DNA from: Sclerodactyla briareus | Taxonomy: Eukaryota; Echinodermata; Holothuroidea; Dendrochirotida; Sclerodactylidae | Assembly: GCA_026419785.1 (NCBI GenBank) | Contig: JAODTK010004442.1 | Location: forward strand, 124,001 to 188,000 | DNA: 64,000 bases | Reading direction: 5' to 3' | The notes under the pieces: generated by a model | Database searches by the model: none | Seen by the model: the letters and a program-made list of their open reading frames with translations, nothing else | Told to the model about the DNA's origin: nothing | Part shown: one piece after another, positions 24,883-63,834 of the stretch | How positions within the stretch are numbered: position 1 is the first letter of the stretch | Layout of the letters: the number at the start of each line of letters is the position of its first letter | Program-made: the position numbers and the translations under genes

Positions 24883-24991
24883 GATGATCACTATTGGGTC
24901 AAAGTTCACTCATACCAGTGTTGTCAGGTCTGACGGGGGATTCTTGATGCAGATGGACCTCGTAAGCGATGTCGCAGACGACAGGGAAAAA
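24883..24991 (+). CDS. pard3: Par-3 exon: second half of CR1 (N-terminal oligomerisation domain)
   Basis: The acceptor is a strong pyrimidine tract ending ...gtttctcccag at 24882, and the donor is GTACGT at 24992. The exon reads DHYWVKVHSYQ, then SDGGILDAD, then DVADDREK. This follows the family pattern YWIQVH...GGILDLDD...DVADD known from human PARD3 and fly Bazooka. CR1 forms head-to-tail polymers that let Par-3 cluster at the cortex. Frame is lost around the TGA at 24930-24932 and again near 24960 (GCAGATGGACCTCGTAAGC). Both places need a small indel to restore the conserved reading, which is typical of unpolished sequence. The exon ends in phase 0 after the REK codons and joins naturally to the exon at 30233. 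The preceding CR1 exon was not found. Confidence 0.9.
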
Positions 24992-27900
24992 GTACGTTGA
25001 TGCTGGCTGGGGACTAATCTCTCTTCAACCATGTAATATTTCCAAATGATACCTATTGCTGCACCTATTCCCCCATGTACCTCTACCTCTAGGTAGAGTG
25101 GTATCAATGACACATCACAAAAGAATATCTCGGGTTCAAATGCCAGCGGTCAAGGGGCGATTTTTCCTAGGTGGATGTACTTGTGCTGTGATGCAGTGTT
25201 ATTTTTGCGGTCACTGGGATTTGTTACGGGATAACTGCAGTAAGTCTCATCTGTCGGCGGTGAGAAGTTACATTGAACTTGAACTTCTGTTCCTCCAGAT
25301 TCCGAGAAAGTGGGGCGGGTCCTGGAGTCACTGATAGTTCCTTTCGGATAGGGACGTTGAAATGGTGTGGTCCTGGGCACTGCTGAAAAAAGGGCAAACA
25401 AAGTACCTAGCAAAAAAAAAAAAAGCCGTTCAGTTCGTTTCCACAAAGTAGTGGTTTTGAGAGTGCAGTTGTTGTATCTGCGTGGAGCAGACAGGTTTGG
25501 GCAAAGCGTACAAGGGACCGTGTGAATTATTATGCAGAACTCATAGGTGCAAAATAGGAGCATATTTTGGCAACTCTGAAGTGAAGTATCTAACACACAT
25601 TCGGCTAGCGCCCATCTCCCTAAGCGCCCACCCAACTACTTTGCAAATGATCTGATACAACGATTATAATTGATAGTTTTAGCAATGATTTTAGCATTTC
25701 CACAATCAAATTCCAGCCCTGTATTTATTCAGTATGCCATAAGATGAGGCAATGGTTGGTAGGTGGGCATGCGTTATGTGTCCGAACGCATTTACCAAGC
25801 CCTGATCGTAGTTTGAGCGTGTATGCAGATGCATAGCATAAAAACTAGTTATTTACGCGGAATGAACATGATCGTTTGTGAGTTTAATCTCGCGGGAAGG
25901 GCGGGTTGGGGAGTGAGGTGGATACACTGCTTGTGGAAATAGCAAGACATTTTGCTTCAAGTGTGCGATTCCCAATGTGGAATGTGTTGTCTCGCAAAAA
26001 TACCACCCAAAACAATATCAAACAGTTGTAAAGTTATAGTGCGTAGAGCTCTTGTCGTACCGTTGCAGTGGGTGCAAGTCTCGCTGGACATCGGGACAGA
26101 AACGGCACAACTTGTGTTATACGTTCAGTCGTACGCATACACAGGGTACAGTGTACCGATCTGATCAAAAGGTTGTACGTACGCGGGTGGAGCGACGACC
26201 TGACTAGCGTAAATTTATGCTTGCTGGTTTGTACCATGAACACATTTAAATAGCTGCTTTTTCGTGCAATTGTATTCAAAGCTGAGTTATGGATGGTACG
26301 ATCATTGGAGTAATTAATAAGCCTAATTTCTTGAGAAAGTTTTTGGTGGACTGCAAAGCAAGATTACCGCGAGAGCTTAGAATTCCCGGCAAGGAGCTTT
26401 CCGTTTTGCCCTTTCTTCCTCGTGGTCGGGGAGCAGATTGGGTTGGTTACACCCCTGCTCGTTACAGATGGGCAATAGTCAAGAAGAGAAGGCGGTTTTC
26501 GCTGGTGTCATCCACGATCATACCGCAGGGTTCAAGATGAGACTTGATAGTGGATTCCTGAACACGTGTAGAAATCGAATCAAATACCACTACCCCTTTC
26601 CCCACCCCCAATCTACCTTTACACCCTCCCCACAACCTCCCATCCTCTCTCTCTGCGATGAAGCTGGTATGTACTCATCCTTCAATGAGTCAGTCTAGGT
26701 GGACTAAAAGAATAACAGCCACTGATTATTTTACGGTGGAAATGCCTATGTGCGGAGTAAAGTTACTGTTTCATCGTTAGGAAATTGATTAGACCTGAGT
26801 TGGGAAGTTTTTAGCTACGATATTCATATGCCAAATTGGTGGAATCAAGTTCAAGGTACTTTGAACCATCGTTGTTCTTTAGCTTGCGTTTGACAACCAC
26901 AAACATCTACAGTATTTATGTGTACTTGCTGGAAAAATGTCAGTGTAAGGCAGATACTCTAGGGTGATCTTGCACCAAGGGAAGTCTTTAAGCCCTTTAC
27001 ACTTGCTGCATTATGGTACATCATAATTTGCGCATTAATTTGTAACCAGTTCATGCCGATCATTAAATTAAAGTGTTCACGCAGCATGCGGGTTAATGGG
27101 GCCATGCAAGAAGTCCGTGGACCAAATTTTAGGAAGTGAAAATTTGCCACGAAAGAATGATGAGAATTGTTGAGGAACAATTCGTGAACTCGTGCAAATA
27201 TTCACGGCGATCGTGGACAGGCTCGTGCCAATGCTGCCATAGACCCATTGGGTCGCACAAACCACGACTAGTCCACGACTACGTTACGAATAGTTTACGA
27301 CAAGTAGTGCGATCTTCCCGTATCGGCTGCGCATAGTTCATGCACAGTTTTGATGGCAAAAGTGTTTGAACTGCACATGCGCAATGATGATCGAGAGCGA
27401 TGGTCGACAAAAACAAAAATGGATACAGTAGGCACATGTCAGGCAGTGCATGAATAGGCCTGCATAGTACGAATTTTGTAACAGGGAGTGTCTCGTTGGT
27501 TATGAAGCTTACTGGTATGCACTGTCACGCCACCAGTGTTGGGTAATGTGGGGACTCCAATTCATGCAAGTGTAAAGACCGTAACTTAATAACTCAGGAA
27601 ATACTGTAACTTGTGAATTTTATTTCTTCCACTTACAAAGTATTTATCCTATGAGGAAGTCATGTCTTAAAAAAAGCATACCAGCATTTTGTCAAAAATT
27701 TGAGTCCATGTTAACTGATTTTTCTCAAACGGAAGTGATTGTGAGATGAACTTCTTCTACCATCACTATCCAGGATCAAACTACTAGCTACTTGATCGGC
27801 ATAATCTTCTAAGCACAGATGGTGGCCATCACGCCAGCGCAATCGTGCGAGCGGTTGGTAACATATCGAGCATAAGCGACCATAAAAATCTTCTATTGGG

Positions 27901-28315
27901 GACCCTTTCATCGCTTCCGAGAACATTCAGGCCCTAATAATGTAAAGTACGGTATGTATAGTTTGTAGATTGGAAAATTTCCGCTTGATTCATTTTGCTG
28001 GTACAATACATCTTGACTTGTCGAATTCATGTTCAATGTTACATGTTTCTAGTTCCGTTTGAATCGCAATGACATGCATGCTATGTGCTTCGCATTCCTA
28101 TATTCCTTCTATCGTGATAAATGCGTAGTTAGGTTTAATATCTGTAAAATTTATGAACATCTATTATGCTTGCGTGAACATATAATAAGGAAGAGAAAGG
28201 AGAAAAGTGCTCTTTCCTACAGCCGTTATGAATTAGCTGGACCATGAATGGTAACTGAGATGTAGAAACAGAGGGTAACATAACGGCCCAGTATGAGGGG
28301 GGTGTTAAGAGAGTG
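24992..28315. other. Par-3 intron
   Basis: Between the CR1 exon and the post-CR1 exon. It includes the longest open frame of the window, 161 codons on the minus strand (25150-25635), which has no recognisable domain and a tract of A/T homopolymer inside. A + strand frame at 26289-26540 (MDGTIIGVINKPNFLRKF...) is also unrecognised. No repeat family was identified. Confidence 0.5.
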
Positions 28316-28466
28316 TGGACCACAATTCCCACCGGACAATTTCCACACGGACAAGTCCCCCTACCGGAAATGTTTGTATGGTCAGAATTAGGGGTAGGGT
28401 CTAAAGTTAGGGTCACGTTTGGGTGGGAATTGTCGGGTGGGAATTGTCCGGGTGGGAGTTGGTTCG
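28316..28466. mobile_element. Foldback / MITE-like inverted repeat
   Basis: The left arm (28319-28358) reads accacaattcccaccggaca then atttccacacggacaagtcc. The right arm (28421-28462) reads gggtgggaattgtcgggtgg then gaattgtccgggtgggagtt. The arms are imperfect inverses around a centre containing ggggtagggtctaaagttag. The GGTGGGAATTGTCC unit is present once in the left arm (inverted) and twice in the right. Confidence 0.6.
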
Positions 28467-30232
28467 GCAACAATTAAAAGAATGGTAGGGCGGTACTGAA
28501 GCATGCGAGACTTGTTAGAGAAACTGTGTCTGGCCAAAAAAACACTCCTTTTCTTCTTTGCGATTGATTTATTTATTCAAACTTCATATATAACAGCCGC
28601 ATTGATATATAACCTATCACTGCAGATGGGTTCATAATTTCTTATAATATGCAGCACTGGGTTTGCCCTGTCCTGATGCAATGTTAAATGTCATCTTGCA
28701 GAACCTGTAATTGAGGTCTTCTGACACTCCTTCAGTAGCAGGATGAGTCTCAGGTAAAGGATCTGTTGAAACTCGCCGCGCTCAAAAACAAAAAAAATTT
28801 CAGTTAGGCCTGTCAATTCTGGGCTTTAGTTATAAACATTCAGATCACTTCTTGGAATAAACGCGGAAAGATCCAATAGAGAAAATTCTGAATTCAAAAT
28901 TTGAGAGAAAGATTCAAGAATCAAGATAGGAGAGAGACTTAAGTGAGATTGGGGTTTGTTTGACAGATGAAAAAGAAGCCAGGCTCATTTGTGAATTTGA
29001 ATCGAATTAAAATCCTTTTGAGAGTTCTGCCCATAACAAGGCATTACATTTCTGTTTGTAGCTGAAATGCATCAACCTATTGCGTCAGTGTGAATGGCTG
29101 AAGTTTTATCATGGTACAGCGGCAAACTAGCTACTTCTAGTTTGAAATGCAGGTAGTACCTGAAATGAGAATGCTGTGAGCACCTGGTAAAACTAGCATG
29201 AGCTTGTAATCGAAGATACAAGAACACTTGAATAAATTTTTTCTGGTCAAGGAATGCCAGAAAGGTTCCTAAAAATTGGAATCAGGGGAAGAAACTGCTC
29301 CTAGTGGTCAGAGGTTCTCACCTCGTGTCCCTACCTTAAACAGAAAAATTCGTGGATGTGGACACTGGCATCATGAAATTATTACCCTGGAATTTCCCCG
29401 GAATTTTGTGCTATGGGCTTCAATTGCGGCACAACATCATGAAAATGTTCTGGTGCGCACTATACTTCTCACAATCATGGAAGGCAAAAATTATAGATAT
29501 TAATACACCTGATCATCAGTGACTGGTCACACTCATAATATACAACCATTTACCTCTTGCTTGTTCACGTCTGATTGAAACAGTTCACTATACCTCATCC
29601 CACCGCTGTCCCCTGGCAGACTTCCCAATAGGGATGTTGGTCTGGACTATCACGTCTTCAAAGTCACCTGATAAGTCCCAACTTCTTCACATGGGTGGCG
29701 TGCCCTGTCTAGCAGCACTGCAGAAGAAAAAGTCCTCAGCTCTTAATGGACTTCGAGCTCGCAACAATTGTTTTGCTGCTGCACAACATCACGACTGCGC
29801 TACAGTAATCCTCGTCCCATTCAGCCCCTCCTATCAGAGGGTGCGGTAATAACTAGGGCCTACTACTGTTTAAAACCTGCAAAAGTACTTCTACTCTGGT
29901 AGCAAAGCGGAATGAATTGAATAAAGTATGTCCATTGATAGCAGCTTTCACAGCACAACGAGGCAAGGCAAACTGAACTGTCTTGAGCGGTTAGCCGGCT
30001 TACCCACTCGCATTCATCATAAGTGCTGACCATTAAATATGCCTGAATCTTTCAGAGTATAGGAGCAATTAAACATGAAGCCGTGCGTTCTTGGGTTAGT
30101 AGCAAAAATGAAAAAATATTCATGCAAATTGTGGAACTGACAGCACCTTGAGGGTTGTGGTTGTGTGTACTGAATGAATGTTTAAATGAACCCTTTTATT
30201 TGCTCTTTTCCCGCCCCCCATCCCCCCACCAG
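28467..30232. other. Par-3 intron
   Basis: AT-rich, no repeat family recognised. It ends in the C-rich acceptor tract of the exon at 30233. Confidence 0.6.
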
Positions 30233-30443
30233 TTAGGCTTGTTTGGAAGAGGCAGGAGACCAGGGTTCCACATCAAACGGAGAGATGATCTCTGACGGGA
30301 CCGAATCCTCCATCGGGACCATGAGCCCGATCAGCATGAGTGAGCTGAATCACATCAACAAACAGTATACCACAAACTCATCATACGGCGGCTTCCACGA
30401 CGAGAACGGCGAATGGACATAGTAGTCACAGGGCAGGAAGTGG
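30233..30443 (+). CDS. pard3: Par-3 exon: post-CR1 region
   Basis: The acceptor is a C-rich tract ending in cag at 30232, and the donor is GTAAGG at 30444. The start reads L-ACLEEAGDQGS, matching the end of CR1 (LVAVFDEQ in human) once one extra base near 30236 is discounted. It continues with SDGTESSIGTMSP and SMSEL. This parallels the family segment [20 protein letters not shown]. An apparent TAG TAG stop at 30420-30425 is best read as a frameshift: dropping one base before it gives MDIVVTGQEV, equivalent to the conserved EIEVT. If that is wrong, the reading frame would instead terminate here. The segment is rich in Ser, Thr and Gly and is expected to be disordered. Confidence 0.82.
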
Positions 30444-31732
30444 GTAAGGGAAATTTTGAGTTGGGTGAATTGTTATAAGAGACGCCTGTGGTTGGCAAGA
30501 GCATGTTTCACTGCCCTCCCACTCACCTTCTTAATCAAGCTTGTTCAATTGCATTCCAGTAAATCCTGTCTTACTTTTTGTGGGTTTGGGCACCCCCACT
30601 TCCCCCCAACGCCATGGCATAGTTGATACCTCATAGGCTGGCATCCTTTTTGCCTGTTGTGTAATTAACAAACACGTTTCTTTCTAATCGTCTCGGACTT
30701 TTCTCATTTAAATATCGTATATGATTCAATTCTGACCCTGTACCTGGATCACAAGAATTTTGAAAGGTTTTCACAGGAGACTTAACTTTTTGCCTGACTT
30801 TTCTAGGCCTAACTTTATTGCCAAATGTCACATGTATGACTGGTAGATACCCAAACCAGTAAGTTTGGGGGATACTCAACAACTCCTGGTACGTGGATTT
30901 TCAAGCATTCCTCTCTCTCATCGTGTATCAGAAAGTTTGTCAAAATATGATGGTCATTTAGATATAATTTAGATAAAAGTCCAATTCTATCTAGTGAACT
31001 GAGAAACTCAAATTTCGGAACGAATTTCAGCCGATTTGACCAGGAAAATGAGCCCAAACCTGCTGTCTAACATTAATAATGTCACAAAGGGAACTGCGGA
31101 CTCTGTTGTACTGTAATACACATTAAATCTGAAACAGGTACTTTTGAAAACCCAATCACAGAACTACGATTTCCTACATATTAACTTACCATTGCAATAT
31201 ATTTCTTTGCAATTATTTCCTTTCCATCGTTGTGTTTACTTTTCACCTGTTCACAAGTTTAAAGAAAATCTATTGCATGACCACTGGACTTTAATGAGGC
31301 CCCCAGGTAATACTTTAGGCCATACTCTATACAGCTAGCTTTTCTCATGGTGCATGTAGGTTTTATGTGAGGTTCAGGAAATGCCTGCTGGCCAATAGCC
31401 AGACAGATCCTGTCCCCGCTGAATTTCATCTGTCAATACCCCCATCATCATCTGCCCTCATAGCAGCATCAAGGACCTCTAAACTCATGTAGTAAAGTAC
31501 AACTTTATTTATGGTCACCTTGCTATCATCTGCCAAGCTATAAATTCTAGAATTCTTAAAGGTCTATAAATATTGTTGCCGCAAAATTCAGACTTTGTTT
31601 TTCGCCTCTGGTTTGTTTGTGCTATAAAGAAGGAACAGTAAATCACTGGATACTTCATGGTTAAAGTTGTGAAATTTGATGTTATCAGGTCATGCCAAGT
31701 CAAAAAGGAGTCACTCATACTATCGTTATAAT
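30444..31732. other. Par-3 intron
   Basis: AT-rich with a few short open frames and nothing recognisable. Confidence 0.55.
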
Positions 31733-32536
31733 CTGTAATAGAAGCCCCCCCCTGTAAAATGCCCCCGAATAACATGCCCCCCCCTTTGTTTTGACGAATA
31801 CTGATCGACAAAAATTAATCCTAGCCGCCTAGCGCGAAATTAGCATAATTCAAAATGAAAAAGCTTCCTTTCTACCATATTAGCAGCTTCGACAAATCCT
31901 CCCCGCCAGACTAAGTCAAATTAACTACTACCTGCCCAATGTCTTTCGTAGAGTATCCGATATGAAAAATTTTTTGCTACAACGTCATCCACGTAGCACG
32001 ATGCTATTCACTTTAGGCATTGTATTGCATGCTACAATACCGCACGAGTGCCAACGATCTTATGATAGAAACACCACATAGACAACAGATCTGATAAAAG
32101 CACATTTTTCAAAAGTAAACATTCATAGCAGTCCAACCATATCATCTATCGATTGGAACATCTCTAATACTCAGGAAATGCAGTTGTAAAAAGTTTTAAA
32201 ATAGTTTCTCACACTTTATGTCAGCGTTGGCATACCCACGTAATGAGATTTATGTCTATATGGAGCTCAGCAGTGCGCACGGGCCGCGTGTATTAACTCC
32301 ATGTAAGCTTTATAGGTATGCGCGTATAGTGCTGCGGTATTTCGGTGCACTGGTTGTACGGTGGTGGGTTGCGGGTTCTGTGGGGGTATATGTTAACACC
32401 GCAACACGTACACGGCGTACAAAAACTTTCTAGAAAGCAACACGGGACAACGGTACAAACAATTAAAGAAATTATTACACCCTTTAATAGATGCCCCCTG
32501 TTTTCAAAATGCAATGCCCCCAGGGGGTTATTACAG
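31733..32536. mobile_element. MITE-like element with short inverted ends
   Basis: The left end is CTGTAATAGAAGCCCCCCCC (31733-31752) followed by TGTAAAATGCCCCC. The right end, read on the minus strand from 32536 inward, is CTGTAATAACCCCCTGGGGG followed by CATTGCATTTTG. The shared CTGTAATA...CCCCC and the following TTTTG/AAAATG blocks suggest terminal inverted repeats of about 30 bp with indels. The 0.8-kb interior is non-coding. No clear target duplication is seen. Confidence 0.42.
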
Positions 32537-33691
32537 ATCTTACAGAGTAGGTTGTTTTTTCGTGAAAATAACTGGAAATGTTAGGGTGCAAAATGAGGAT
32601 AGCTGTTTATTGAGAGCCATGTTCTGTTATGGAAGAGGGCAACAGAGGGAATAGATCACCAACATTGCACTGTTTTGAAGACAAATTATGTAAACACACA
32701 TAGGCATTGTCGGTCAACATATTTACAATTACCAGTCAAATACTCTGTTCAAATATTCTGTGTTTTCAGAGTGGAAAAAAAAAATGGCCTGGAAATGACA
32801 GAATTATTACGAAGTAATTTATTCTGAATTAATTTCCATAATTAGGCACACCTGGACAGGAATGCAAAAGGTCCTCATAGAAAACCCTTCGATGGAACAG
32901 TTTAACAAAAGTACATCCACTGTCAAGTGCAAGCTTCAGCAATAGTATTAGCTGTGGTTGGCATAATGAAGTATGAGCTTTGATATGTTAACATAACCTT
33001 GGTCAAGCTAATCCGTGGCAATGCACGAAGCGAAATTTGAAACACTATGGGCATACAGCATAAACTCGTACCATAATATAAATATCCAATAATTCCCCCA
33101 CTCACTGAAGGTTGGAAATCTTTCTTTACCAGTAGCATATAAGGATGGGCCAATGCACAGATGAAAGTTACATAATATTGGAAATAAGCATACAGTAGTA
33201 AAGCGTATTACAATATTGTGGCTTGAAAAGTGACACTCAAAATTCTCCCCCCCCCCTATTTCACCCATGGGTGTTTAATTGAATTATACAGCATGTGTGT
33301 ATTCATTAGGCTGGACATCTCTAAATCCTTCATATGGGAAACAAATCTGTGGTCAACAACCTTCAATATATATATTTTGCCCTGCAGAGTCGAAGTTGAA
33401 AGTGAGACATAACGGTGCTATACCAAACAAGAGTCATACGTCCTGTGCTGCCCCTCATCTCGACTGGACTCTAATGCCAATACTTGCTCTAAAGGTTTGT
33501 GATTTCATCTGTTAGAGGGCGAGATGTGGAGTGGGGGGGGTGGGGGGGTGGGGTGGGGGGTGGGGGGGGCAAACCAGGATTGGTGTTATGCTACGTGGTC
33601 CAATATGTGGTGGAGCAGTCACATACACAGATTTCACTTACCCTTCCTGTTTTGTTGGTTTTTGTAAAACTTACGATCATGAGTGATATAG
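32537..33691. other. Par-3 intron with G-rich tract
   Basis: Nothing coding. At 33530-33569 there is an almost pure G tract with single T interruptions, enough for several stacked G-quadruplex runs. Confidence 0.6.
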
Positions 33692-33875
33692 GGACTCATA
33701 CTGACACATCCACGTGGACTTATACGAACAATACCAACTGCCAAGAAGATGGGACTTCTACAAGGAAAAGCAATCTGAGTCGACCGGATTGTTGTTGAAA
33801 CCCAATGAGGATGAAAGGGACAAGGGGGCTGTGAGTGGGATTTGGCAGAACAGATTCGGTGACCCAATTGAGCAG
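33692..33875 (+). CDS. Candidate Par-3 exon between CR1 and PDZ1
   Basis: An open frame on the + strand runs through 33714-34043. Within it are LPRRWDFYKEKQSES, KPNEDERDKG and WQNRFGDP. The RW...K...DE...W.N.F spacing loosely resembles the human CR1-PDZ1 linker (RWSTTAGFLKQ, KKDENYRS, WSNQF). A possible acceptor follows a T-rich stretch at 33690-33691. Possible donors are GTGAGT at 33831 and GTTTTC at 33876. The region just upstream (33530-33570) is a G-rich tract. Position in the gene is right, but linker sequences are poorly conserved, so the identity is an inference. A chance open frame is the alternative. Confidence 0.35.
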
Positions 33876-34200
33876 GTTTTCAAAGCATCAGTTAGGTTGG
33901 TCCATAATTGCTGCGAGAAATGCCATGTGTTCAATAGAACCTGTTTTGGGGGGGGGTGGACAAGGGGGAGGCTTGAGGTGGAGGTTTTGGAGCAGGCTCA
34001 ATTACCCCTGAAAAAGGTTCAAAAGGGGGAAATTATAGTCTAGGACGTTCTAGGTCAGCCACACCCATCCATGGACATGCCTACATGATACAGCCATTTT
34101 CGGTGTTCAACATCAGTCAATGGGGGGAAATTTCCCCAGAGTTAAGCTCAAATCATGTTAGGTACGGCACATGTTATTTGTGCTACCCTTTGCATACCAG

Positions 34201-34343
34201 AATGGGAATGGCCATTGCCAGTGATGATGCTGCACGAGGTGCTGCCTTGACAGTCAGCCAGGGTTCCGTCCCGGCGGTCCCTTCTCCAGCGCCCAGCAAG
34301 CTCTACAAGGGGGCGGAGGCGCAGGCAGAGGATAAGAGGACGG
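34201..34343 (+). CDS. Candidate Par-3 exon just before PDZ1
   Basis: The segment is bounded by an acceptor (ttgcataccag, ending 34200) and a donor GTGAAT at 34344. It is GC-rich compared with its surroundings. One frame is open across the whole piece and reads ASDDAARGAALTV, then SVPAVPSPAPSKLYK, then EAQAEDKRTG. The composition (Ala, Pro, Ser, charged) is coding-like and fits a disordered linker. It lies 504 bp before the first PDZ1 exon. I cannot match it to a specific Par-3 motif, and the frame could also be wrong by an indel, so only the exon-like character is supported. Confidence 0.5.
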
Positions 34344-34847
34344 GTGAATACTGAATAACACTTCGACGTCTGGTTGATTGACCGACAAAACCATGTTTGT
34401 GTGGTGTTCGCACAGAACACACTTCCATTGACCTATTGCTTTTCAAACACAGTATGCATACAAATTGTTGATTCGTGCAACTCTTTTTACGCCTGACACA
34501 ACGTTGTCCAACTGGTAGTTAAGATTGTCGCTATGTGCCGAGGGGTAAAATAATGAAGAAAAAATTGGCTGGAATGCAGGCTGCTGCTTGCCAATTTTGG
34601 ATCCGAGACCTCCCCCTGGATAATTTCAAGTGAACAACTTCTGCTGATTTCCTTTGAAGGTTATAAAACAATATATTCAGCCGCCGTAATAGAGTCATTT
34701 ACTTGCTAATCAGAGTGATTTTAAAAGTGCCATCTCTTTGATTTTCTAATTCTTAATATCCGTGTGAGGATTTATGCTTCGGCTCGGACATATTGCCCAA
34801 AGGTGAACAGATCCAACCAAGTCAAAACTCCCTCCCAACCCTTCTAG

Positions 34848-34959
34848 CCGTCCAGACCGACGGCCAAGGAACAGAACAGATACTGATCGAGATGGTGTGA
34901 AACGATTGGTACGCCCTGGGGATCCAATCATCGCCAGGGTCGAGGAACGAGGATGGCAG
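34848..34959 (+). CDS. pard3: Par-3 exon: first half of PDZ1
   Basis: The acceptor is a C/T-rich tract ending ttctag at 34847, and the donor is GTAGGT at 34960. Read with corrections, the exon gives DGQGTEQILIEMV, then ND-G-T, then LGIQSSPGSRNEDGR. This is the beta-A/beta-B start of PDZ1, where human has [22 protein letters not shown]...GGR. The carboxylate-binding loop is PLGI-type rather than GLGF, as expected for Par-3 PDZ1. An in-frame TGA at 34889-34891 interrupts the conserved frame, and a second shift lies a few codons later. A competing frame stays open across the exon (RPDRRPRNRTDTDRDG) but has no family resemblance. In Par-3 this domain contributes to binding Par-6 and junctional proteins. 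Confidence 0.75.
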
Positions 34960-37756
34960 GTAGGTCTGAGCATGGGTCTTCTTAAAAAAAAAGGTTTGCG
35001 TTGTTCCCCCTGTGCGTCTAGGAGTGAGAAAAACAAAACATCTGTTGTTTGTAAAACAAGCCTCTGGCCATTTGGCTGATGTTGGTGATTATAACAGAAT
35101 GTTTCGAAGAGACTGGGCATCCAAATCATATTAGCATTTAGAACTTGTGCATTTGCAGGGACAGAGTAAGGGCGGTTTTCTTAGGGGGAGGGTCGTTCTT
35201 GCAATGACTATGAACACAACGCCATAAGTCAAAATAATTTTGACACCTGCCTGGTAGCTCTATTTGGCTGTGCCGAGAACAAGTCCAATGTATCCTTTAT
35301 ATTTGTTTGCGTGAATTGTATTCAAAAACGGCAATACATGAGGCAGTATGACGCGAGCCATGCTCCAAAATCGCCACACCTAGTTGTTCCAGCACTGTGC
35401 TCGCGGATCGCTCATCATACCATATTGGATCCGGGGAATTCTTTGGATGTTCTGTTCATGTTTAAAAAATCCCCGAGATGGAGCTGGGGGATTGTTTTAT
35501 TTTTTTTTTTTTTTCGCTTTTTCTTGAAAGGGGAATTGTACTTCCATGTAACTGATATCAATGTGCTCTGTTGGGGTTATAACTGTGATATTCTGCAATG
35601 GGCCTGATGCCACTTCCATACTGCATGCTGCCTTCAATTTTGGTGTGACGACATCCTTTTTCATTTGAATTTTTTTTTTTTCATCGCGCAATATTCATTT
35701 CAAGGATATAAACTTTTTGGTTTTAGCAATCAAATATAATTGTGCCCGGAGAGAGAGTGTTCACAGTTTCACAAAACCCACATTGTCTGTTGGACGTGAA
35801 TCTGGGAGTTTTGGCTATGTTACAGGTTGTAGGTGCTTAGGAAAAGAACCAAAGCATATAGACCAAGAAATAATGAGTGGAAGCTTCTTCACCAGTACTT
35901 TACTATTGACCAGGCTAGAGGACAATGAGTAGGGGAAAATGTGTGCTATGCCACAGGAGCTGAGGGAAAAGAAAGAAAAGAAAAGAAAACACAGACATCC
36001 AATAAATTAGAGAAACTATTAGAATTTAATGGTCGGATTTTATTTTGTGTGCTCTGGCCCTCTGTGACATAATAGTCAGAGCAAGAAACCCACTGGTAGC
36101 AGCCATGATTTGAAAGAGTGGGCCAGTTTACCAGTTACGCATTGCAAGGTTAACCACTTGTCCCGGAAAAAATTGCCAGCAGTCATGGGGGCTTTTCTTA
36201 CAGGTGGGCTGTACTTGCAGTGCGATTGAAAAGGTCTCAATCTTTCACTCCATGGCATAGATCCGCTGTAATATGGCCGCTGACGTTTGGGTTTCTCGGT
36301 GTTTGCTCCAGGAATATTTGCATAGGTAAGTTCAAATGGATTAGGCTGGTGGAATCAGTTCATGTTTGAACCTATGCCCTTCTATTCGTTCTGATATTAG
36401 TGGTTGTTGATTCTGGAGTTTGACGGACCGTCCTTCGGATGGGGACATAAAATGGCTTTTCCCAGAGCATGGGTTAAGGATTGGTCAACTTTGCTTTGGT
36501 ATCATTTGGAGGCCCCACTCATCAGGAAAAAAGAACTCATCCGCCGAGTGCTCTCAATAAGCAATTATACCCAGGTTTCTCAACATGAATACTGCTCTAT
36601 CTTGTCAGGGCTTTGGACGGGGTTCCACGGGTCGAGAACACGCGGGGCCCGAGCTTGACCCCACGGAGAAGGAGGCTACTGCGGGGGGGGGGATATCCAT
36701 ATCCTGCCCCATTTAAATGATTGACAATTATCACTCAGGAAAACCTTTTGACAAAGTTAAAGGTGTATTCGAGGAGCCGAAAACTTTGCCTTGGTCCGAG
36801 ATGAAGAAGAAGGGAAAGTCATTTGCCGATTTTCCACACTTCCCCGTTGGTTAAGCTAGAACTATTGGCAAACACCAGAGTGTTGTTCCCACACCATTTG
36901 ATGATCAGTGGGGTGGGTAACAATGGTTAAATCACAAAAGTTGCAAAAACACATTCACTAAAGTTATAGGTAAAATCGGTAAGTCACATGAAGTATGCAC
37001 ATTTATTGTCTGTCCTACCCTGGTCTTCTGCTTCTGTTTTTTTCGTCCTCGATGTAAACCCTGTTCGGGTATTCACAAAGAGGGCGTTGGTGGTTCAGTG
37101 AAGCATCAAGGCAAAACACACCTAGTAACTTTGTTTTTTTTTGGTGGGTAGGCGGGGCCTTCCCGTAAACAACTTCAGAATGGGGGGCTGTCCTAACGGG
37201 GGAAGTGGAAAGGGTAAATTCAGTCCAGTCTTTAATAGTTTGCGGATAGAAGCTTGTGACTGGGGCTTGATATTTATGGGGGATTTGACCCTCCGGTAGC
37301 GGGCCACTCCTAAAAGTCCAAGTTCATGTTGTCTGAGGCGATGTAGTCTTGCATTCACCATGTTTGTTAGATTTATAAAAAAAGGGTGGGGGGGAATTGA
37401 GAAAGAAATATGAAAGGTACCTCTCTGATGATCTTGAGATGGGCTCACTTGTTAGGGGTGACATAGCGATCTTAAGCCACCAAGTTAGGGTATCCAAGCA
37501 AAAACTTCAAGAAATTTGATCGAGGTATGCAAAATTAGCGGTTCCATAGCAAGTGGGCGATGCCTACTTTGAATGCATTTGAGATTTCACTATAGTGGAA
37601 ATGTTGTTGCTATGTAGTGCTATTCTCTTTAGGGAACAGGAACTTGTGTGGTGGGGTCCTTGGGGTTTGTCATAGTCACTGTGGGCGTGCTGGGTGGTTC
37701 AAACTCATATTTAAAATTCCTCTCCATCATCCTCTCCCTGGTTGTACGGGCTCAAG
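34960..37756. other. Par-3 introns around the missing PDZ1 half
   Basis: Apart from the weak candidate at 36609-36684, I see no segment encoding the rest of PDZ1 (the GLLV, NDCIVRING and FRQAM blocks). The region has a poly-T run (35496-35516), a poly-T at 35670-35680 and a poly-G at 36682-36691. Confidence 0.5.
36609..36684 (+). CDS. Weak candidate for second PDZ1 exon
   Basis: After tatcttgtcag (ending 36608) there is a GC-rich stretch. Its frames include GLWTGFHGSRTRGARA and EHAGPELDPTEKEA. These recall the Par-3 PDZ1 segment GLLV...GSRAE in fly or KAEHENLFREND in human, but only a few positions agree and no single frame carries them all. It ends in a poly-G run at 36682-36691 with no clear donor. 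It lies where the second half of PDZ1 is required, between 34959 and 37757. This is a positional guess. Confidence 0.25.
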
Positions 37757-37907
37757 ATATGTGCGAGAGCGATGCGGAGCCCCAACGTGTTGAAGAGCTC
37801 CTGGTGGAGAGGACAAGGGACAGGAGACTGACCAAGGACCCCCAAGCCCCCCCCGTGGTCCCGAGGAGGTCCCCGCAGGGACGAACCTGATCGGCCCTTG
37901 GAGAAAG
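37757..37907 (+). CDS. pard3: Par-3 exon: PDZ1-PDZ2 linker and start of PDZ2
   Basis: The acceptor follows a C/T-rich stretch ending ctcaag at 37756. The exon reads CESDAEPQRVEELLVERTRD, then RRLTKDPQAPPVVPRR. Near its end a frame change gives NLI-PLEK. The last G joins the first GT of the exon at 38951 to give the codons for E-K-G-P-Q-G-L-G-F, exactly the family junction (LKKGTEGLGF in human, LKKGPNGLGF in fly). That phase match is the main reason for accepting both the exon and its 3' end, although the donor itself (GTTCAT) is weak. The proline- and arginine-rich linker is expected to be disordered. Confidence 0.72.
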
Positions 37908-38318
37908 GTTCATCCGGGGTTTAAACCAGCATGAAAGGCTGGGAAGCACACGGTAACATACAAGCTGATTGAACGGGTTACTGTTGGGACTGGGAGGGAA
38001 GATGGAGAGTAGGTTTAATCTAATTCACATATTCAACCTCACCTCAGATAGGAACCTACCACACCAATTTTGTGGCAAGCCTGGGCTTTGGCAATTACCC
38101 CACCCCCGTCAACTGGCCCCCCACTTGGCCCCTTCTCATTTTGTCGGAGCGCATTGCCTAGTGGAGCTTTTGGCATAATATGTTGTTTTGAAAATTTTCA
38201 CCCGATCCGGGCTATCGATCGCAAAATTGTTTTACCTGTTCTGGGGCTGCGAGGAAGGAACACAACAAACTGGACAACTGCTTGATGAACGGTGCATTTG
38301 GGGCTCGAAACAGAGAGT

Positions 38319-38362
38319 GGGGAGGGGGGGGGGGGGGGGGGGGCGGTGGGTTGGGGGTTTGG
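38319..38362. repeat. Poly-G / G-rich tract
   Basis: Over 30 consecutive G with few interruptions, followed by ggtgggttgggggtttgggg. A second one lies at 38661-38682. Both are in the intron just before the PDZ2 exon and may form G-quadruplexes or slip in sequencing. Confidence 0.85.
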
Positions 38363-38950
38363 GGTGTGTTTTACTGGCGCATGTTGGAATTGAGATGGGG
38401 TGTTGTGAGAGTGATTGACTGAGGTTCCCTTCCCTCAGACCAACACAACCACTATCGGGAAATCCCCTTAGAGTGGGCAAATAGTGTGAAGATGCTGGGT
38501 AGAAACGCATCTACAGCTGAAATGAAAGGGAGGGTTATTGGAAGGGGGAGGGGGTGGTTCCTAATGGCTTTCCAAACAAATATATATCCCAATGGAGGAA
38601 GTACTAGTAACTATCGATCTCAACTGGTTCAAGTGTGGTGACTGTGAAATCATGTGTGAAGGAGGGGAGGGGGGGGGGGGGGCTATCGGTGGGAAGGAGG
38701 ATGTTCATTAGATGAGGTTGGAGTTAGTAGCGATATATTATTAGTAGAGTATTTTCTTTGGTTTCAGGACCTGGAAACCAGCAACAATATTAGCAATAGA
38801 GAATTATGGTTGGGTTCTTGGCAGCTATGACATAATGAATATAAGTAGCCTACAGGTTGGTTGCTGCTTCAATTGCCTTGCAGCATTGAGATATATCCTG
38901 CACATTATTTATTCTTGAAAATTTATTTTATGTTTTTTCCCTTTTTTCAG

Positions 38951-39087
38951 GTCCACAGGGGCTAGGGTTCAGCGTGACCAGCAGGGATAACCCTATATTA
39001 GGGAAGCATCCCATCTACATAAAGACATCCTACCTCATGGCGCGCATCGTAGACGTGCCGCTCAAGCCAGGGAATAGTCTCCTTGAG
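38951..39087 (+). CDS. pard3: Par-3 exon: first half of PDZ2
   Basis: The acceptor is a T-rich tract ending ttttttcag at 38950. The exon opens GPQGLGFSVTSRDNPILGK, then HPIYIK. It then shifts frame to give ILPHGA-AIVD-G-LKPG, and ends LLE. This is a Par-3 PDZ2 with the canonical GLGF carboxylate-binding loop and the RDNP and PIYIKNILP blocks typical of the family. At least two or three one-base changes are needed between 39021 and 39075 to hold the frame. The donor reads TTGAGT instead of GTGAGT, consistent with a lost G. PDZ2 binds phosphoinositide membranes in Par-3, and the domain is completed by the exon at 39836. Confidence 0.93.
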
Positions 39088-39835
39088 TTGAGTTGATGCT
39101 AGATCTAGAGGCGACATGGTTTCTTTTAATGTATACAGCAGGGCTTGACCGTTGTCCAGATCTACATATCTTATGGCTGCTCATCTATGTCTATTGCATG
39201 ATAGCTCGCCACCTTCACCCTCCTCCCCTACCCCCATGGGTATCTGGGGTGGTAGAATCGGCTTGCTACAGTCTGTCATTCCATCTGTGCCGTACCAAGG
39301 TGGCAAGCACCAAAAAAAACCCCCCCCCCCCCCCTCACCACCCCCCCCCCCCCCCCTCACGCCTTGTACAGCTGGAGCCAGTCTCTGAGTGCTAAGGAGT
39401 TTAGTCTCTAGATGCCGGAGACTTGGTTTCCAGGTTGTTGCCTTTTGGCTCAGCACAACCCCTGGGCCCAAAAGTTGTACACATACAATTTTTTTCCCCG
39501 AATAGTCTGGCAAATTTGCATCTAGTCAATCCTCTTATTGCTTACATTTTGAGACCTTCCAAAACCTGTGTCTTTGAATCTGTAGGAGGGCTCCGGACAG
39601 TGGTTATTTGAATCAGAGGGTATGATTAATTGGCGCATCCTGACCCCGCCTAGATGGAAGAACAAATAGCTCCACATACCAATCTCAAATGCCTGTGTCT
39701 ACTGTTTCACAAATTCGCTCATTGACAACTCTTTGTTCACAGCAATTATGCTCCTGCTCGACGCCGGGAGAGATTGGGGGTCTTGTTGTGATTGGTGCGC
39801 ACTTTCCTAGTTCAAGTCTTTTTTCTTCGATCCAT
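39088..39835. other. Intron splitting PDZ2, with two long C runs
   Basis: Short intron. C runs occupy 39320-39356, broken by TCACCA. No other feature. Confidence 0.7.
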
Positions 39836-39974
39836 GTAAACGGCATTGGAGATGACTGGGAAGAGACGCAGGAAAGGCGGTCTCATCCTGCGAGCGTCCG
39901 TAGAGGGGGCTAGTCACCTTTGGTGTACCGCCAGAGTTCCGGTCGATGCAGACCAGACGTTCCCCCGAGTCCTG
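39836..39974 (+). CDS. pard3: Par-3 exon: second half of PDZ2
   Basis: The exon begins VNGI, directly continuing LLE of the previous exon (LLEVNG is near-invariant in Par-3 PDZ2). It then alternates frames: MTGK, ETQE, LILRASVEG and LVYRQ. The family pattern is VNG.D.TGK(S/T)QEEVV..LR....G.V.L.V.RQ. At least three small indels are needed. The donor is a strong GTGAGT at 39975. The acceptor is imperfect (ttcttcgatcca just upstream), as if a base of the cag had been lost, so the 5' boundary is uncertain by a few bases. The last part, after the RQ codons, is linker sequence with no clear motif. Confidence 0.85.
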
Positions 39975-47700: not shown

Positions 47701-47949
47701 CTGCCTAAAATGATACTTGTGTGGTAGGGGTACCCCTATGTAGGTTTTTTTGCACTATGTCCCATTTCCATAGGTGAAAGATCATGTCCCGTTTGTGTGT
47801 CCCCCGTTAGGCCCCTACACAGTAAATGGCGTGTGTGTGTGTGTTTGTGTGTATTGCCCAGCTTGTACCACGTAACTTATCAGGTCTGAGTATCAGCTCA
47901 TACTTGGTATTTTGTTCCCCATGTGGGTACATGATCCCTTTGTTTTGGG

Positions 47950-49900
47950 GTCACGTCAAGGTCATCTGAGGTTCACTAGAGTTCAAAGTATGAAAACCTT
48001 GTAAACACGATAAGTCCAGAATGTTGTTCAGATCAAGTTGAAATTTGGTGTATAGAGCTTTTCTTATGTGAGTACAGGAACCCTATTGTTTTTTGGTTCA
48101 GGTCAGGGGTGAGTTTTGGTCAAAATATGGAATTTGTGACAAAGTCGATGTTTGGGCCCATTTGGCTTGTAAACACGATACCCTCGACTCACTGGAGTGG
48201 ATGAAGCGCATACTGGTATGTGTGGTTCCCCTGATGATTATATGCCCCCTTTGTTTTGATGTCAGTTCAGAGGTCATTTGAGGTCCAACGAGGTCCAAAG
48301 AAAGTCTTGAAAAACCTTGTAACAACGCTAAGAGTTCCCGGAATGGTTTGGTCTGAATCAAGTTGAAATTTGGTGTATAGCTTTCTTATGGGGACCACCG
48401 GAACCCTATTGTTTTGGTTCCATGTCGGGGTGAATTTTGGTCAAAAAGAGACAAATTGTGAAACTAAGAGTCGATTTTCTGGCCATTTTGGCGTGTAACC
48501 ACAATAACTCTACCCCACCTGGATAGGATGAAGCTCATACTTGGCATGTGGTTTTCCCCATTAATGAGTATATGAACCCTATTGTTTTGGGGTCCGGTCA
48601 GAGGTCATTTGAGGTCAACACAAGATCAAAGTATGAAAACCTGTCACGCTACGTCCGAATGGTTGGTCTGATCAAGTTGAAATTTGTGTATAGCTTTCTT
48701 ATGGGGAACAAGGAACCCTATTGTTTTTTGGTTCCAGGTCCCTGGGTGACTTTGGTCAAAAGAGAAAAATTGTAAAGTCGTTGTCTGGTCTGGCCAATTT
48801 TGTCTTGTAAACAACGATAACTCTAACCCCCACCTGGATAATGAAGCTCATACTTGGATATGTGTGTCCCCATGAGGAGTACATTAACCCGTTTTTTGGG
48901 GTCAGGTCAGAGACATCTAAGGTCAACGAGGTCTAAAGTCTGGAAACTTCGTAAACACAAAGTCCAGAATGGTTGTTCTAACAAGTTGAAATATAGTGTA
49001 TAGCTTTCTTGTGGAGAGTACAGGAACCCTATTGTTTTTTGGTTCAGGAGGTCGGGGTGAATTTTGGTCAAAAAAGGAACAGGTGAAAATTGATATTTTG
49101 GCCAATTTTGTTGGCTTTAACACGATAACTCAACCCACCTGGATGGATAAGCTAAGTCTTGGTATGTCTGTCCCATGAATGATTACATGGACCCTATTGG
49201 TTTTTGGGGTTAAGGTCATAGGTCTATGAGGTCCACAGAGGTCAAGGCTGAAAACCTTGTAACCAACACGATAAGTCCAGAATGGTGGTCCGATCAGATT
49301 GAAATCTGTTGTATAGCGTTCTTATGGGGTGTAAAAGACCCTATTGTTTTTTGGTTCAAGTCGGGGTGAATTTTTGGTCCGAAAATAGAAAAATTGTGAA
49401 AAGTCAATTATTTTGGCAAATTTTGGCTTGTAAACACGATAATCCCACCCCAACCGGTGGATGAAGCTCATCTTGGTCATGTGGTTGCTAATGATGAGTA
49501 CATGAACCCTACTGTTTTGGGCTCAGGTCAGAGGTCCTCTGAGGTCCAACATGTCTGATCAGGTTGAGATTTGGTGTGTTCTTTCTATGGGGGAGGAAGA
49601 CACCTATTGTTTTTGGTCCAGGTCGGAGGGAATTTTTGTCAAAATTATGAAAATTGGTGAAAGTGAATTTTTACTCATTTTTGACTTGTAAAACGATAAC
49701 TCACTCACCCAGATGGATGACAAGCTCATCTTGGTATGTGAGTTCCCCATGTGATTACATTAACCCTATTGTTTTTGGTCAGGTCAGAGTTCATTTGAGG
49801 TCACCCGAGTCAGCGTCTGAAAACCTTGAAATTTATTTGTACTTCCTTATCAAGAGTATAGGAGCCCTATTGGTTGGTTGTGGAAAATGGGAAATTTGTC
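47950..49900. repeat. Satellite array B, about 315-bp dimeric unit, 6-7 copies
   Basis: The marker gttgaaatttggtgtatagc recurs near 48045, 48361, 48678, 48985, 49301 and 49563, i.e. steps of about 316, 317, 307, 316 and 262. Each unit is itself two related halves. Both start with cttgtaaacacgataa and both contain ...gaaccctattgttttggttc, then aggtc. One half has caagttgaaatttggtgtat, the other has gaagctcatacttggtatgt. The second half ends in AGGTCA-rich text. Copies are indel-ridden. Confidence 0.9.
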
Positions 49901-51477
49901 CAGACGTTATGGTTCCATTAGATCTTGTCCATCTCCCTTTTGTCCTTGTGTCTGGCTTAGGTTGTCAGAAATTCAGGAACACTAACCTTTTGGCTTTCTG
50001 GTGACTAACCATGGTGCGAATGGGTGCTTGGTAAATTTTGGTTGTGCTAATTTTCAATGCTGAACGGCCACCCCTCACTGTAGTCTGTGAACTCCTTTAC
50101 CGCTTATCTAAAGATGTTATATCACTCACACCCTACGTATTTATCACTTCACTGCTCCCTGTTCCTTTGTCCATATATCCCTTCACCCCGTATCTATACT
50201 GACCTTCCCCCGTTCCACATCTGGTAGGTCGTTAACATACCTATACCGAGACCTCGGGTCTTCAGGCACCGGGGACGTTGGTCTACGCATCCTGTTCTGC
50301 TTGCCCAATTAGCCTGCAAGCAGCTCATATTTTTTTAATTCTCGCCTCTTACTTAGTAGAGTGGCAGCGGGGCTACCTTGGGGCGTTTACTTAAGCTTAA
50401 CTTCGAAAGTCATCCGCACTCTCCCGACCGGACTTTCCATTTGAAGGACGTCGCAGTAGTCGGTTACTGTGATTAACAATCATGTTGTTGCCCCTGCTTT
50501 CCGCAAGTGAGCAGGGTCTTATTCATAAAATGTGGGCTTTTCTGGACTTGGTTCTCGAGTTGAAATGAAGATAGGGGATAGATAGATGGATAACAGGCAA
50601 CAGACAAAACTGACAGTAGATACAAATTGATAACACATCACACAAGATAGGATAGGCATGTTACCTCATGGATCATGAAATACGATACAATTAAATTGGC
50701 GTGGATTGCTGAAAAAGGGAACAAAATATACAATGAAACGACAACAATGCTTATATCAGTACTCAGCGCATTCGGGCAAGTTGTTAAGAGTATGCACTGA
50801 GTTAGGAACTATTTAAGTGCGCACCCTTCCATCTTATAGATCTGTTTTCAAGATATATCTATTCCAGTCTATTATTTTCAACATTGGGTGTGTCAGAGTA
50901 GCTGTGGTCTTTGACATGCACTGACTCTTCTTGGCCACCTGTGTTAACTTATGGATCTAGAGAGAGACGGTCACATTCAATTAATTTTGGTGGCTGTACG
51001 TACACCCGTCTGAGGTGGTTCATGTTCTCCTGTTTGTACTATTGTATCAAACTGCAAAGAAAAAATGATTTAAATACTCTCAACACAGGCCCGTACCAAC
51101 AACTCCCAAGGAACATCAAAACGACTCTAACCATCACAAACAATGTACCTTCGATAGCCTGCCCCCCACAATGTTATCTACATGAGCATATCATTTCAGA
51201 TCACTCAAATGTGTGAAAAGAAGTATAGAATTGCTGACACACTACCTCAGTGTCAATTGACATGCTTCTGTAGATTATGGTCCAATCAATGAAAAAAAAA
51301 TCTTTTGTTTTTTCCGACACTAAGGTAGTATCATTGACTCCAAGTAAACGAGTCTGCTCTCTGAAGTTAAACTCAGATATATGGATAAGGCGGACACAGG
51401 GGCTGTGTTGCCAGCAAACGGTATTAGGAAAAAGTTATTAGGTAGTCAGTTACCGTGGAAGCAGAGCAGTCTGACAT
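49901..51477. other. Intron, nothing seen
   Basis: AT-rich. A gat(a/g) run occurs near 50575-50595. No open frame or repeat family was recognised. Confidence 0.5.
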
Positions 51478-51842
51478 GAACATTGAATACAGCAGGGGAG
51501 GAAAGCAATATGCAACCTGGGTTGTCCATGATTTTAAACAAATTCTAATAATTTTGGGTGTAGGAAAGTCCAAATACCAGTCACACGATTTTGCTTGGGT
51601 GTAGGAGCAGTCCGATATAGAACATTGAATACAGTAGGGGAGACATCATGCAACCCTGAGTGTCCCATGATTTTACCAATTCTAACACTCTGGGTGTAGA
51701 AGTCCAAAATCCAGTCACACAGAATTTTGCTTGGGTGTAGGAAGTTCACCAGTTTGCCAGAAAGATTGAAACGCAATATTGTGCGAAGGTAGAGGCAAAG
51801 GGGGTTCAAGTATTTCAAACTATTGAAAGCTGTGTTCCTCAT
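51478..51842 (-). mobile_element. Non-LTR retrotransposon reverse-transcriptase fragment with internal duplication
   Basis: On the minus strand the text gives AFNSLKYL, then LCDWILDF, then SVRIGK, then QGCMMSPLLYSMF in a shifted frame. This is the order of the conserved RT blocks (AFNT, LC.WILDFLT.RPQ.VRIG, PQGC.LSPLLYSLYT) of LINE elements. A segment of about 138 bp is present twice in direct orientation (51619-51745 and 51478-51605), so the QGC..SPLLYSMF block occurs twice. The catalytic YADD motif is absent. It is a dead fragment within the PDZ2-PDZ3 intron. Confidence 0.75.
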
Positions 51843-55020: not shown

Positions 55021-55223
55021 ACAACGACCGACCTGGCCAGTCCAGACGTAGCATTCTCAACACAAACTCAAAGGCCATCCTGATTCAACATCGCCCTCAC
55101 GACCTGGTCGGCGGGCCCTGGGGGCACGTCAAGAAGGGCAAAACTACAGGAGGGGGGACCGGCGGCGAAACCAAGGACCTTGGGATCTTCATCAAAATCT
55201 GTGACACGAGGCCTGCATCCAAG
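55021..55223 (+). CDS. pard3: Par-3 exon: linker and first half of PDZ3
   Basis: The acceptor is ...tataatttag at 55020 and the donor a strong GTGAGT at 55224. The 5' part (NDRPGQSRRSILNTNSKA) is linker. The PDZ3 start is recognisable as NIAL, then AG-LG-HVK, then GKTTGGGTGGETK, then DLGIFIK, ending ASK. Family members read LGVSVKGN...DLGIFVKS(I/V)I..GAASK, and fly Bazooka has the same VKGKT with a long Gly/Ser insert, as here. The GLGV loop is broken by indels in the raw text (GPWGHVKKGK). The exon ends in phase 0 after ASK, which is the known junction with DGRLR. PDZ3 contributes to PTEN and other partner binding in Par-3. Confidence 0.92.
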
Positions 55224-56258: not shown

Positions 56259-56805
56259 GAGGCAGCTACGTACTAACGACCAACTCTTGTACATCAACGA
56301 TGTATCGCCTAGTGAAACATGTCCAACAGCCAGGCCATGGACACCCTCCGAAAGGCAATGTCATCTGAGAAGTCGCCCCGCTCCACTATAAGGCTCATGA
56401 TAGCTCGGAGACAGGACGTAGCCGAGACACTGCACAGTGCCCTGAACAAGTTCTGGTTGGGGGAGTCCGGCGTCGAGGCATCGCCGGACGGGGGATAGAC
56501 GGGACAACAGCAATGCGGTCGGGAGGGGAAAACCCCAGGTGCGGAGCCACGGGGATTAGAATGCACCTGGAACCAGAGTGAGACCAGGGCTCATTGCTAC
56601 AGAACATTGCTGATACTCTGTCAGCAAAGAACAACATGGACCTGGCGCCCCGGAACCGCTGATACCAGTGGTGCGCAATGGATGGCAGGGCCCGGGTCAT
56701 GTACCCCCACTCTGGCACAGGGACGGTGGGAGCTCGGCCCATGGGGGGAAGGACCTGCCAGTAGCAGTGAGGACAAAGGCCCTCATAGATAATGGAGGTT
56801 TGCAG
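56259..56805 (+). CDS. pard3: Par-3 exon: second half of PDZ3 and downstream region
   Basis: The acceptor is ttctcttccag at 56258. The start reads DG-R-LRTNDQLLYIND, matching DGRLRVNDQLIAVNG with one or two lost bases. At 56316-56414 an uninterrupted stretch reads NMSNSQAMDTLRKAMSSEKS, then PRSTIRLMIARRQ. This is the PDZ3 alpha-B helix and final strand (N..AMETLRR.M...I.LIVARR). Beyond 56414 the text stays GC-rich and exon-like (VAETLHSALNKF, then EPLIPVVRNGWQGPG, then KALIDNGGLQ in different frames) up to a good donor, GTAGGT, at 56806. The exact 3' end is therefore inferred. The post-PDZ3 region of Par-3 is otherwise poorly conserved. Confidence 0.88.
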
Positions 56806-57322: not shown

Positions 57323-57330
57323 TTCTAATA

Positions 57331-58428: not shown

Positions 58429-58436
58429 TTCTAAAA

Positions 58437-62335: not shown

Positions 62336-62589
62336 GATAAAGTCTTCCATTTCTTCTTCTTGTTCATTATTGCATGGTATAGGATGCTTTCCTTTTTGTT
62401 GTGACACTGCACGAACTTCTAACAGAAATTGTATGGAACGTCGTTAAAATGCGACTGACATGTTTAGGTTTTGCCCAGCTGTTATATATCCATTTTAAGT
62501 TATTCTTGTTCTTCAAAACATTCAAGATGTACTAGCCTCAAATAGGTGAAAACAGGTCTGACACAGTTTGCTTTTTCCTTAAATCGCAG
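62336..62589. other. Intron immediately before CR3 exon
   Basis: AT-rich, ending in the T-rich acceptor tract. Confidence 0.7.
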
Positions 62590-62814
62590 TCCTCCTATGA
62601 GCCCAGAGCTCGACCGAGACCAATTCAGAGGGGACAGTACGCCCGGCTAGGTTCTCCGAGAGGAAAAGCAGGGTGGACTCATCGATGCCAGGAGGTGGGG
62701 GTGGGTACCTGGCATGCCATGTGGTCCAGTCAGTGGTAGCGGTGCGGTCCTGCACATACATAGAGGACTTGGTTGCAGATCTGTCATCGGGCTTGGTGCC
62801 GTTGATACAACAAG
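62590..62814 (+). CDS. pard3: Par-3 exon: CR3 / aPKC-binding segment
   Basis: A good acceptor (ctttttccttaaatcgcag, ending 62589) precedes SPELDRDQ, then FQR-G-QYARLG, then SER or EK, then GGLIDARR-GWV. This parallels the aPKC site: QREGFGRQSMSEKR in human, and RDALGRRSISEKHHAALDAR then TGTY in fly. Near 62761 the frame gives EDLVADLSSGLVPLIQQ, resembling the human SMDLVAD block that follows CR3. In the family, the Ser in the GRxSxSEK motif is phosphorylated by aPKC, which releases the kinase. The raw text shows Gly-Phe or Gly-Ser there, depending on frame, because of indels, so the phospho-site residue cannot be stated. A possible donor is GTTTTA at 62815. Confidence 0.7.
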
Positions 62815-63766
62815 GTTTTAGGGTCAAAATTACTTGTTTTGAAGACAAGGTCGTGTAAGATAAACCTTCATATCTAGAGGCTATGTTATGACCATGTTAG
62901 CTCTATTGGCCAGTAAAAGACGTGAAAGAAAAAGGGATATGGTATACTGGCAAGTGCTCCAAAAATTACAGGAAAATGCGCATGCAAATGCTGTTCGCGG
63001 TAGTTATTTTGGAATATTGATATGTGACATTTGGCCAGGGGCTAATCCACACCTGACTCTAGCCCCAATGAGACAATGAGGTATATAGTGAGCTGATTTG
63101 ATTTTATAGATGGGTTAATGGGATGTACAGTAACAAGCCACTGCATTCAAAAGAAATTCCCATACCATGACCATGTTGTACTCTACCTAAGTCATCATTA
63201 CATTCATGGAGCATGGGTGAGACAGGGAAACTGAATGGGGCTGCAGCTACCTCCACTCTACCCTAACCTGGGCCCCCACAGTACCATGGATTTTCCTGAC
63301 AGAAGGTTACTCCTCACAATTTTGGTTCAGTTGTCCATTAGTGTATGAGGCAGATGTTGTTTGTTGTATGATATTCCCTCACAAGGAATTACAGGATATC
63401 TTCAATGAATAGAAATGCTAGTGACCACCACAGAGAAGTTGTCGGGTGAAACAAGACAAATTAATGGCATGGGGGATGACAGAGAGAGAGGTCACGGCCA
63501 TCCCCAAAATTGGACGACAACCTGATGTTTGAGGGTGTAACCACTAGATGGAGGCTTATGTGTGCAGATTGTTATCTTTGTCAAGTTATGACTGACTCTG
63601 AAACCAACCTTACTGTAACTGTGCCTCTGTATTCTCACAAGAATGGTGGTATCAAGGGAAATCAAGACAGCGGTTATGGAAACTCAAAAAAGCTAATTGC
63701 GATATTCGGCAACGTATCCCTTTTTCCCCAAATTTCCAATTTCCATTCGGTCTCTCCCATGTCCAG
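62815..63766. other. Intron after CR3
   Basis: No repeat family seen. Two short open frames (62888-63079 and 63510-63760) are not recognisable. It ends in a pyrimidine-rich acceptor. Confidence 0.5.
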
Positions 63767-63834
63767 ATGTCTGTACAAGAAGAAGAAAGGTCAGAGAAGT
63801 CGCAGACTGACGAACCTTTATCCCTCACAGAAAG
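63767..63834 (+). CDS. Candidate Par-3 exon after CR3
   Basis: A pyrimidine-rich acceptor (tttccattcggtctctcccatgtccag, ending 63766) and a strong GTGAGT donor at 63835 enclose 68 bases. Two frames are open: SVQEEERSEKSQTDEPLSL or CLYKKKKGQRSRRLTNLYPS. The basic frame fits the Lys/Arg-rich stretches after CR3, and the acidic frame is also plausible. It is the last exon-like segment before the window ends. Confidence 0.45.

Follow-up and report, generated by a model that had tools for sequence, protein, structure and literature searches.

The stretch of DNA analysed here (the window) comprises 64,000 nucleotides of Sclerodactyla briareus, contig positions 124001-188000 of contig JAODTK010004442.1 in an assembly of 319,486,128 bases and 3171 contigs. 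It carries exons of a gene for the polarity protein Par-3 (PARD3 in vertebrates, Bazooka in Drosophila), whose reading frames are repeatedly broken. The gene has nothing unusual about it. A preliminary description, made by reading the letters, had named Par-3 over 24883..63834 without giving a cause for the damage, and the family was recognised correctly through the noise. The contig is 191,334 bases long and ends 3.3 kb past the window.

The exons were aligned with our own frameshift-tolerant aligner, in which one- and two-base shifts are allowed. Over PDZ2 and PDZ3, where alignments were compared, the human PARD3 probe is close to the solved Par-3 chains. The window was resampled 10 times with a first-order Markov model (shuffles) to give reference scores for the human CR1, Bazooka PDZ2, and Bazooka PDZ3 probes. 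For the human PDZ probes no such shuffles were made; they were gauged on the real minus strand, where PDZ3 reached at most 42 and PDZ2 gave nothing of at least 40. Splice dinucleotides were judged by eye beside the aligned ends. Results of genome-wide searches refer throughout to the matches listed.

Par-3 exons at the locus

The N-terminal oligomerisation domain (CR1/NTD, PF12053) of Par-3 is present in the start exon and exon 2 (Table 1). With one shift, the start exon scored 93, 84, and 62 with the consensus, Bazooka, and human probes respectively; nothing else within 30 kb exceeded 40. A clean stretch of it matched Par3_HAL_N_term (PF12053) at E 5.5e-6, with 27 bits against a curated cut-off of 21, and was weakly Par-3 in PDB (E 0.068); a canonical donor lies 11 bases beyond the alignment. 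Exon 2 scored 73 with human PARD3 against 47 in the best shuffle, and tblastn with the PARD3 probe found it at 24877-24994 in two frames on the plus strand (E 0.022). In Pfam, a 21-residue piece of it matched Par3_HAL_N_term at E 0.018, below the cut-off. The exon has an AG acceptor and a GTACGT donor, and the start of the span first described is a real exon border.

A Par-3-type PDZ2 is also present. Its first half scored 134 with Bazooka (best shuffle 46) and 110 with human PARD3, and tblastn with the PARD3 probe placed it at 38941-39093 on the plus strand (E 6e-6). Against PDB, this exon matched PARD3 chains at E 9e-5, the next family being MPDZ at E 0.42. The second half is less well supported. 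The consensus probe scored 50 there, with 43 as the highest value when the interval was resampled 20 times, and the other probes stayed below their shuffles (human 44 versus 46, Bazooka 34 versus 36). Position, VNG start, and GTGAGT donor favour the identity, and the interval is probably the second half of PDZ2. No Pfam PDZ match was obtained with the PDZ2 half-domain.

The third PDZ domain is likewise of the Par-3 type. Its first half scored 58 with Bazooka (best shuffle 46), with the donor GTGAGT directly after AAG, and its second half scored 84 with Bazooka (best shuffle 46) and 101 with human PARD3. The PARD3 probe found PDZ3 by tblastn at 56263-56438 on the plus strand in two frames (E 1.7e-4). 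Five PDB chains matched the PDZ3 tail; four of them are named Par-3 (best E 4e-4), and the fifth, 1wg6, an unnamed protein, matches PARD3 PDZ3 at 1.6e-44. Pfam gave no PDZ match for the PDZ3 halves, with the first taken in three frames and the second in two. Six read-through translations (about 5000 residues, all three plus-strand frames, 34-64 kb) also gave no Pfam match, though the PDZ2 and PDZ3 exons lie there.

Table 1. Exons and candidate exons of Par-3; positions are those of the window unless the contig is named.
Feature	Position	Strand	Remarks
Par-3 first coding exon	contig 119016-119133 (window about -4984 to -4867; 4,985 bases upstream)	+	frameshifted; begins MKVT
Par-3 exon 2, second part of CR1/NTD domain	24883-24991	+	one in-frame stop, one frameshift; frameshift-tolerant alignment
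Possible part of PDZ1 (weak candidate)	26397-26502	+	41 with human, 45 with PARD3B
Par-3 PDZ2 first half (GPQGLGFSVTSRDNP...SLLE)	38951-39087	+	two frameshifts; acceptor CAG; donor TT instead of GT
Probable Par-3 PDZ2 second half (VNG...)	39836-39974	+	heavily frameshifted; acceptor AT instead of AG; donor GTGAGT
Par-3 PDZ3 first half (...KGKTT...TKDLGIFIK...ASK)	~55080-55223	+	frameshifted; upstream border not fixed
Par-3 PDZ3 second half (QLRTNDQLLYIN ... SNSQAMDTLRKAMSSEKSPRSTIRLMIARR)	56259-56438	+	frameshifted; acceptor CAG; downstream border not fixed

The CR1, PDZ2, and PDZ3 matches found by tblastn were all on the plus strand and in Par-3 order, and three further matches had E 1.2 to 4.4. 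The order and strand first described held for these three blocks; the PDZ1 and CR3 blocks named with them did not rise above chance with the probes used. A canonical dinucleotide was seen at seven of the nine splice ends placed: the exon 1 donor, the acceptor and donor of CR1 exon 2, the acceptor of the first and the donor of the second PDZ2 half, and the donor of the first and the acceptor of the second PDZ3 half. As protein junctions, LLE/VNG and ASK/DGR are supported, the former across damaged splice ends. A third proposed junction, LEKG/PQGLGF, found no support from any probe tried. Taken as a whole, the gene would consist of short plus-strand exons with introns between them that reach about 16 kb. 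It would begin with the start exon, 5 kb upstream of the window, and extend as far as PDZ3 at about 56.4 kb.

Between PDZ2 and PDZ3 lies a tandem array at 47895-49548 (313-base unit, 5.3 copies, 73% matches, 12% indels). A 136-base unit occurs twice at 51464-51742 (81% matches, 10% indels).

Search for the remaining parts and for a second copy

The PDZ1 candidate at 26397-26502 scored 41 with the human probe, against 43 in 20 shuffles of the interval; its score of 45 with PARD3B belongs to a probe without shuffles. Pfam found no PDZ match in its three frames. Two other plus-strand places, 30203-30344 and 37747-37792, each drew three of the five PDZ1 probes at 31-41, not above shuffles, and were rejected. 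The search for the exon ending in LEKG covered 30000-38950 and gave nothing of at least 33, with shuffles reaching 30. A loose LEKG codon pattern fits at two sites, neither of them convincing.

Several probes for the linker after PDZ3 and for C-terminal motifs gave nothing callable. An exon-like stretch at 63735-63835 ends at GTGAGT; it is possibly what had been described as CR3, and it is not recognisable as such. With a C-terminal PARD3 piece as probe, its part at 63735-63805 reached 41, less than the 44 of the minus strand, which leaves the end of the described span without support. The CR3 exon may lie elsewhere, and the 3' part of Par-3, which we did not find, may have been lost at the contig end.

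A composite Bazooka probe searched against the genome returned four matches. Two belong to this contig, namely PDZ2 in the window (E 7.4e-7) and the start exon (contig 119029-119127, E 0.49); the other two lie elsewhere (E 0.04 and 6), with nothing Par-3-specific among what was tested at them. Outside this contig, the search, which is of limited sensitivity, gave no match better than E 0.04, and the locus is the only Par-3 one that the searches found. When genome contigs were searched with the PDZ2 exon, one locus was returned, on a 3.4 kb Nitrospira contig; the match covers 14 residues antisense to a 272-codon frame and was taken as chance. Two scans of viral contigs gave no match.

Frame damage in Par-3 and in other conserved genes

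The heavy frame damage reported earlier is real. We counted 17 frameshifts in 745 aligned bp of Par-3, using probes partly adapted to the window, which serve for counting and not as proof of homology. Of these, 11 fall in the two weakest blocks (the second half of PDZ2 and the first half of PDZ3), and the remaining four exons hold 6 in 517 bp.

Other conserved genes of the assembly were broken as well. Histone H4 is practically invariant in animals. Six H4 matches were found, spread over four places and with 46-61% identity per frame; five of the six contain stops. Shift-tolerant alignment of the four copies, each about 300 bp long, needed 9, 10, 8, and 5 frameshifts, with 83/103, 74/103, 81/100, and 76/97 residues agreeing. 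The H4 copies on contigs C1362 and C2362 are all heavily frameshifted and make a handy gauge of base quality. All actin segments together (n=19) held 140 frameshifts in 7152 bp, a total inflated where alignments enter introns. A fairer gauge is offered by the six actin 3' segments, every one of them frameshifted (1, 4, 2, 16, 22, and 14 in 519-826 bp), although the one with 22 (826 bp) also enters an intron. Stops occurred in 21 of the 23 beta-tubulin matches, which overlap and represent about 12 places; the best match has three, and the two matches without stops are merely 43% and 28% identical. For TCP-1/Cpn60, three of the four matches had stops, and no long clean match was among those listed. 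We found, then, not damage peculiar to Par-3 with other genes intact, but damage in H4, actin, tubulin, and TCP-1 too, though unevenly. Damage at Par-3 is not special by itself, because these matches are also damaged; it lies within the spread of the actin copies, not at a known common rate.

On contig C2792, actin 3' segments near 243, 268, and 288 kb carry about 2, 4, and 30 frameshifts per kb; either the damage changes strongly within tens of kb or the segment near 288 kb is a pseudogene. Long runs are not in short supply in the homopolymer spectrum, from which the sequencing platform is not readable. A COX1 probe found no match in the assembly.

Identity of the gene and origin of its broken frames

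Frameshift-tolerant alignment and the PDB matches place the blocks in Par-3, ahead of other families, as had been proposed. That the resemblance is a product of chance, picked out by eye, has practically no probability. The PDZ1, CR3, and LEKG parts of the preliminary description do look like chance; for CR1, the first half of PDZ2, and PDZ3 the scores against shuffles refute it, as four blocks reached 58-134 versus at most 47 in 10 shuffled windows. PDZ domains are alike, and MPDZ and DLG4 chains appeared among the weak matches of the PDZ2 exon (E at least 0.42). A different multi-PDZ gene, such as MPDZ, PATJ, or DLG, is nevertheless extremely unlikely: for this exon, Par-3 chains are ahead by over three orders of magnitude, four of the five matches of the PDZ3 tail are Par-3 and the fifth is a PARD3-like chain, and CR1/NTD exons precede the PDZ exons.

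The locus is thus very probably an ordinary, partly readable Par-3 (PARD3/Bazooka) ortholog, its broken frames most likely being base-level assembly errors and not gene decay. Assembly error is likely because essential genes (H4, actin, tubulin) are broken too and cannot all be dead. The analysis establishes the homology, the exon order, the strand, and the fact that further conserved genes in the assembly are damaged, and we infer that the errors came from sequencing or consensus calling. Their simplest source would be a long-read assembly that was unpolished or thinly covered.

Several findings weigh against this interpretation. Two of the nine splice ends are non-canonical (the donor of the first PDZ2 half and the acceptor of the second). 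Five PDZ1 probes were run over 25000-38940; none of the three with shuffles exceeded these, and the best place for the other two was the weak candidate at 26397-26502 or something lesser. Three probes for the CR3 aPKC-binding motif gave no plus-strand score of at least 31 from 56001 to the contig end. The composite search missed the window's own exon 2 and PDZ3 exons, and a second damaged Par-3 copy could escape it too. The damage is also uneven: the best-kept actin segments, each of about 520 bp, show 1, 2, and 4 frameshifts, two of the 19 segments (249 and 132 bp) have none, and 12 of 27 actin matches and 13 of 14 PDZ matches elsewhere lack a stop, though such lists favour clean stretches. 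Moreover, the worst actin and H4 copies could be pseudogenes themselves, and the true background would then possibly lie below the Par-3 figure.

A rival explanation is a true pseudogene, an unprocessed Par-3 copy whose frame was lost by mutation while an intact copy lies elsewhere or is unassembled. It would fit the frameshifts and the stop in the exons and their two non-canonical splice ends, and also the presence of far less damaged actin segments in the same assembly. We consider it unlikely all the same: no second Par-3 locus was found, in a search of limited sensitivity, Par-3 is described as central to animal cell polarity in PMC5583741, and conserved essential genes are also broken, among them the best beta-tubulin and all H4 copies found. 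It is very unlikely that Par-3, a central polarity scaffold, has truly decayed and been lost or replaced, with damage at the locus above the background of assembly errors. With damage in essential genes, in every family tried, assembly error is still the best reading.

Broken frames alone therefore say little about gene loss in this assembly, and real exons can escape ordinary searches in it. Before pseudogenes, lost genes, or unusual coding are claimed for this genome, support at the level of reads is needed.

Comparison with known systems

As set out in PMC5583741, CR1 of Par-3 self-assembles head to tail into filaments, and its PDZ domains and other sites bind partners. Judging from its family, the protein encoded here would self-assemble through CR1, bind partners through its PDZ domains, and organise cell polarity. 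Frameshifts and premature stops that give genes the look of pseudogenes have been published for small genomes with assembly errors. The errors in the published example made up less than 0.05% of the genome; their density here is far higher.

Unlike vertebrate Par-3/PARD3, Drosophila Bazooka, and C. elegans PAR-3, the locus has no recognised PDZ1 or CR3 aPKC-binding motif, its frames are broken by apparent assembly errors, and its 3' part is absent or unread. It shares with them the MKVT-type N-terminal oligomerisation domain, followed in the same order by a PDZ2 with GLGFSVTSRDNP and a PDZ3 with DLGIF...ASK and the [QR]LRxNDQL...AMxTLRxAM run.

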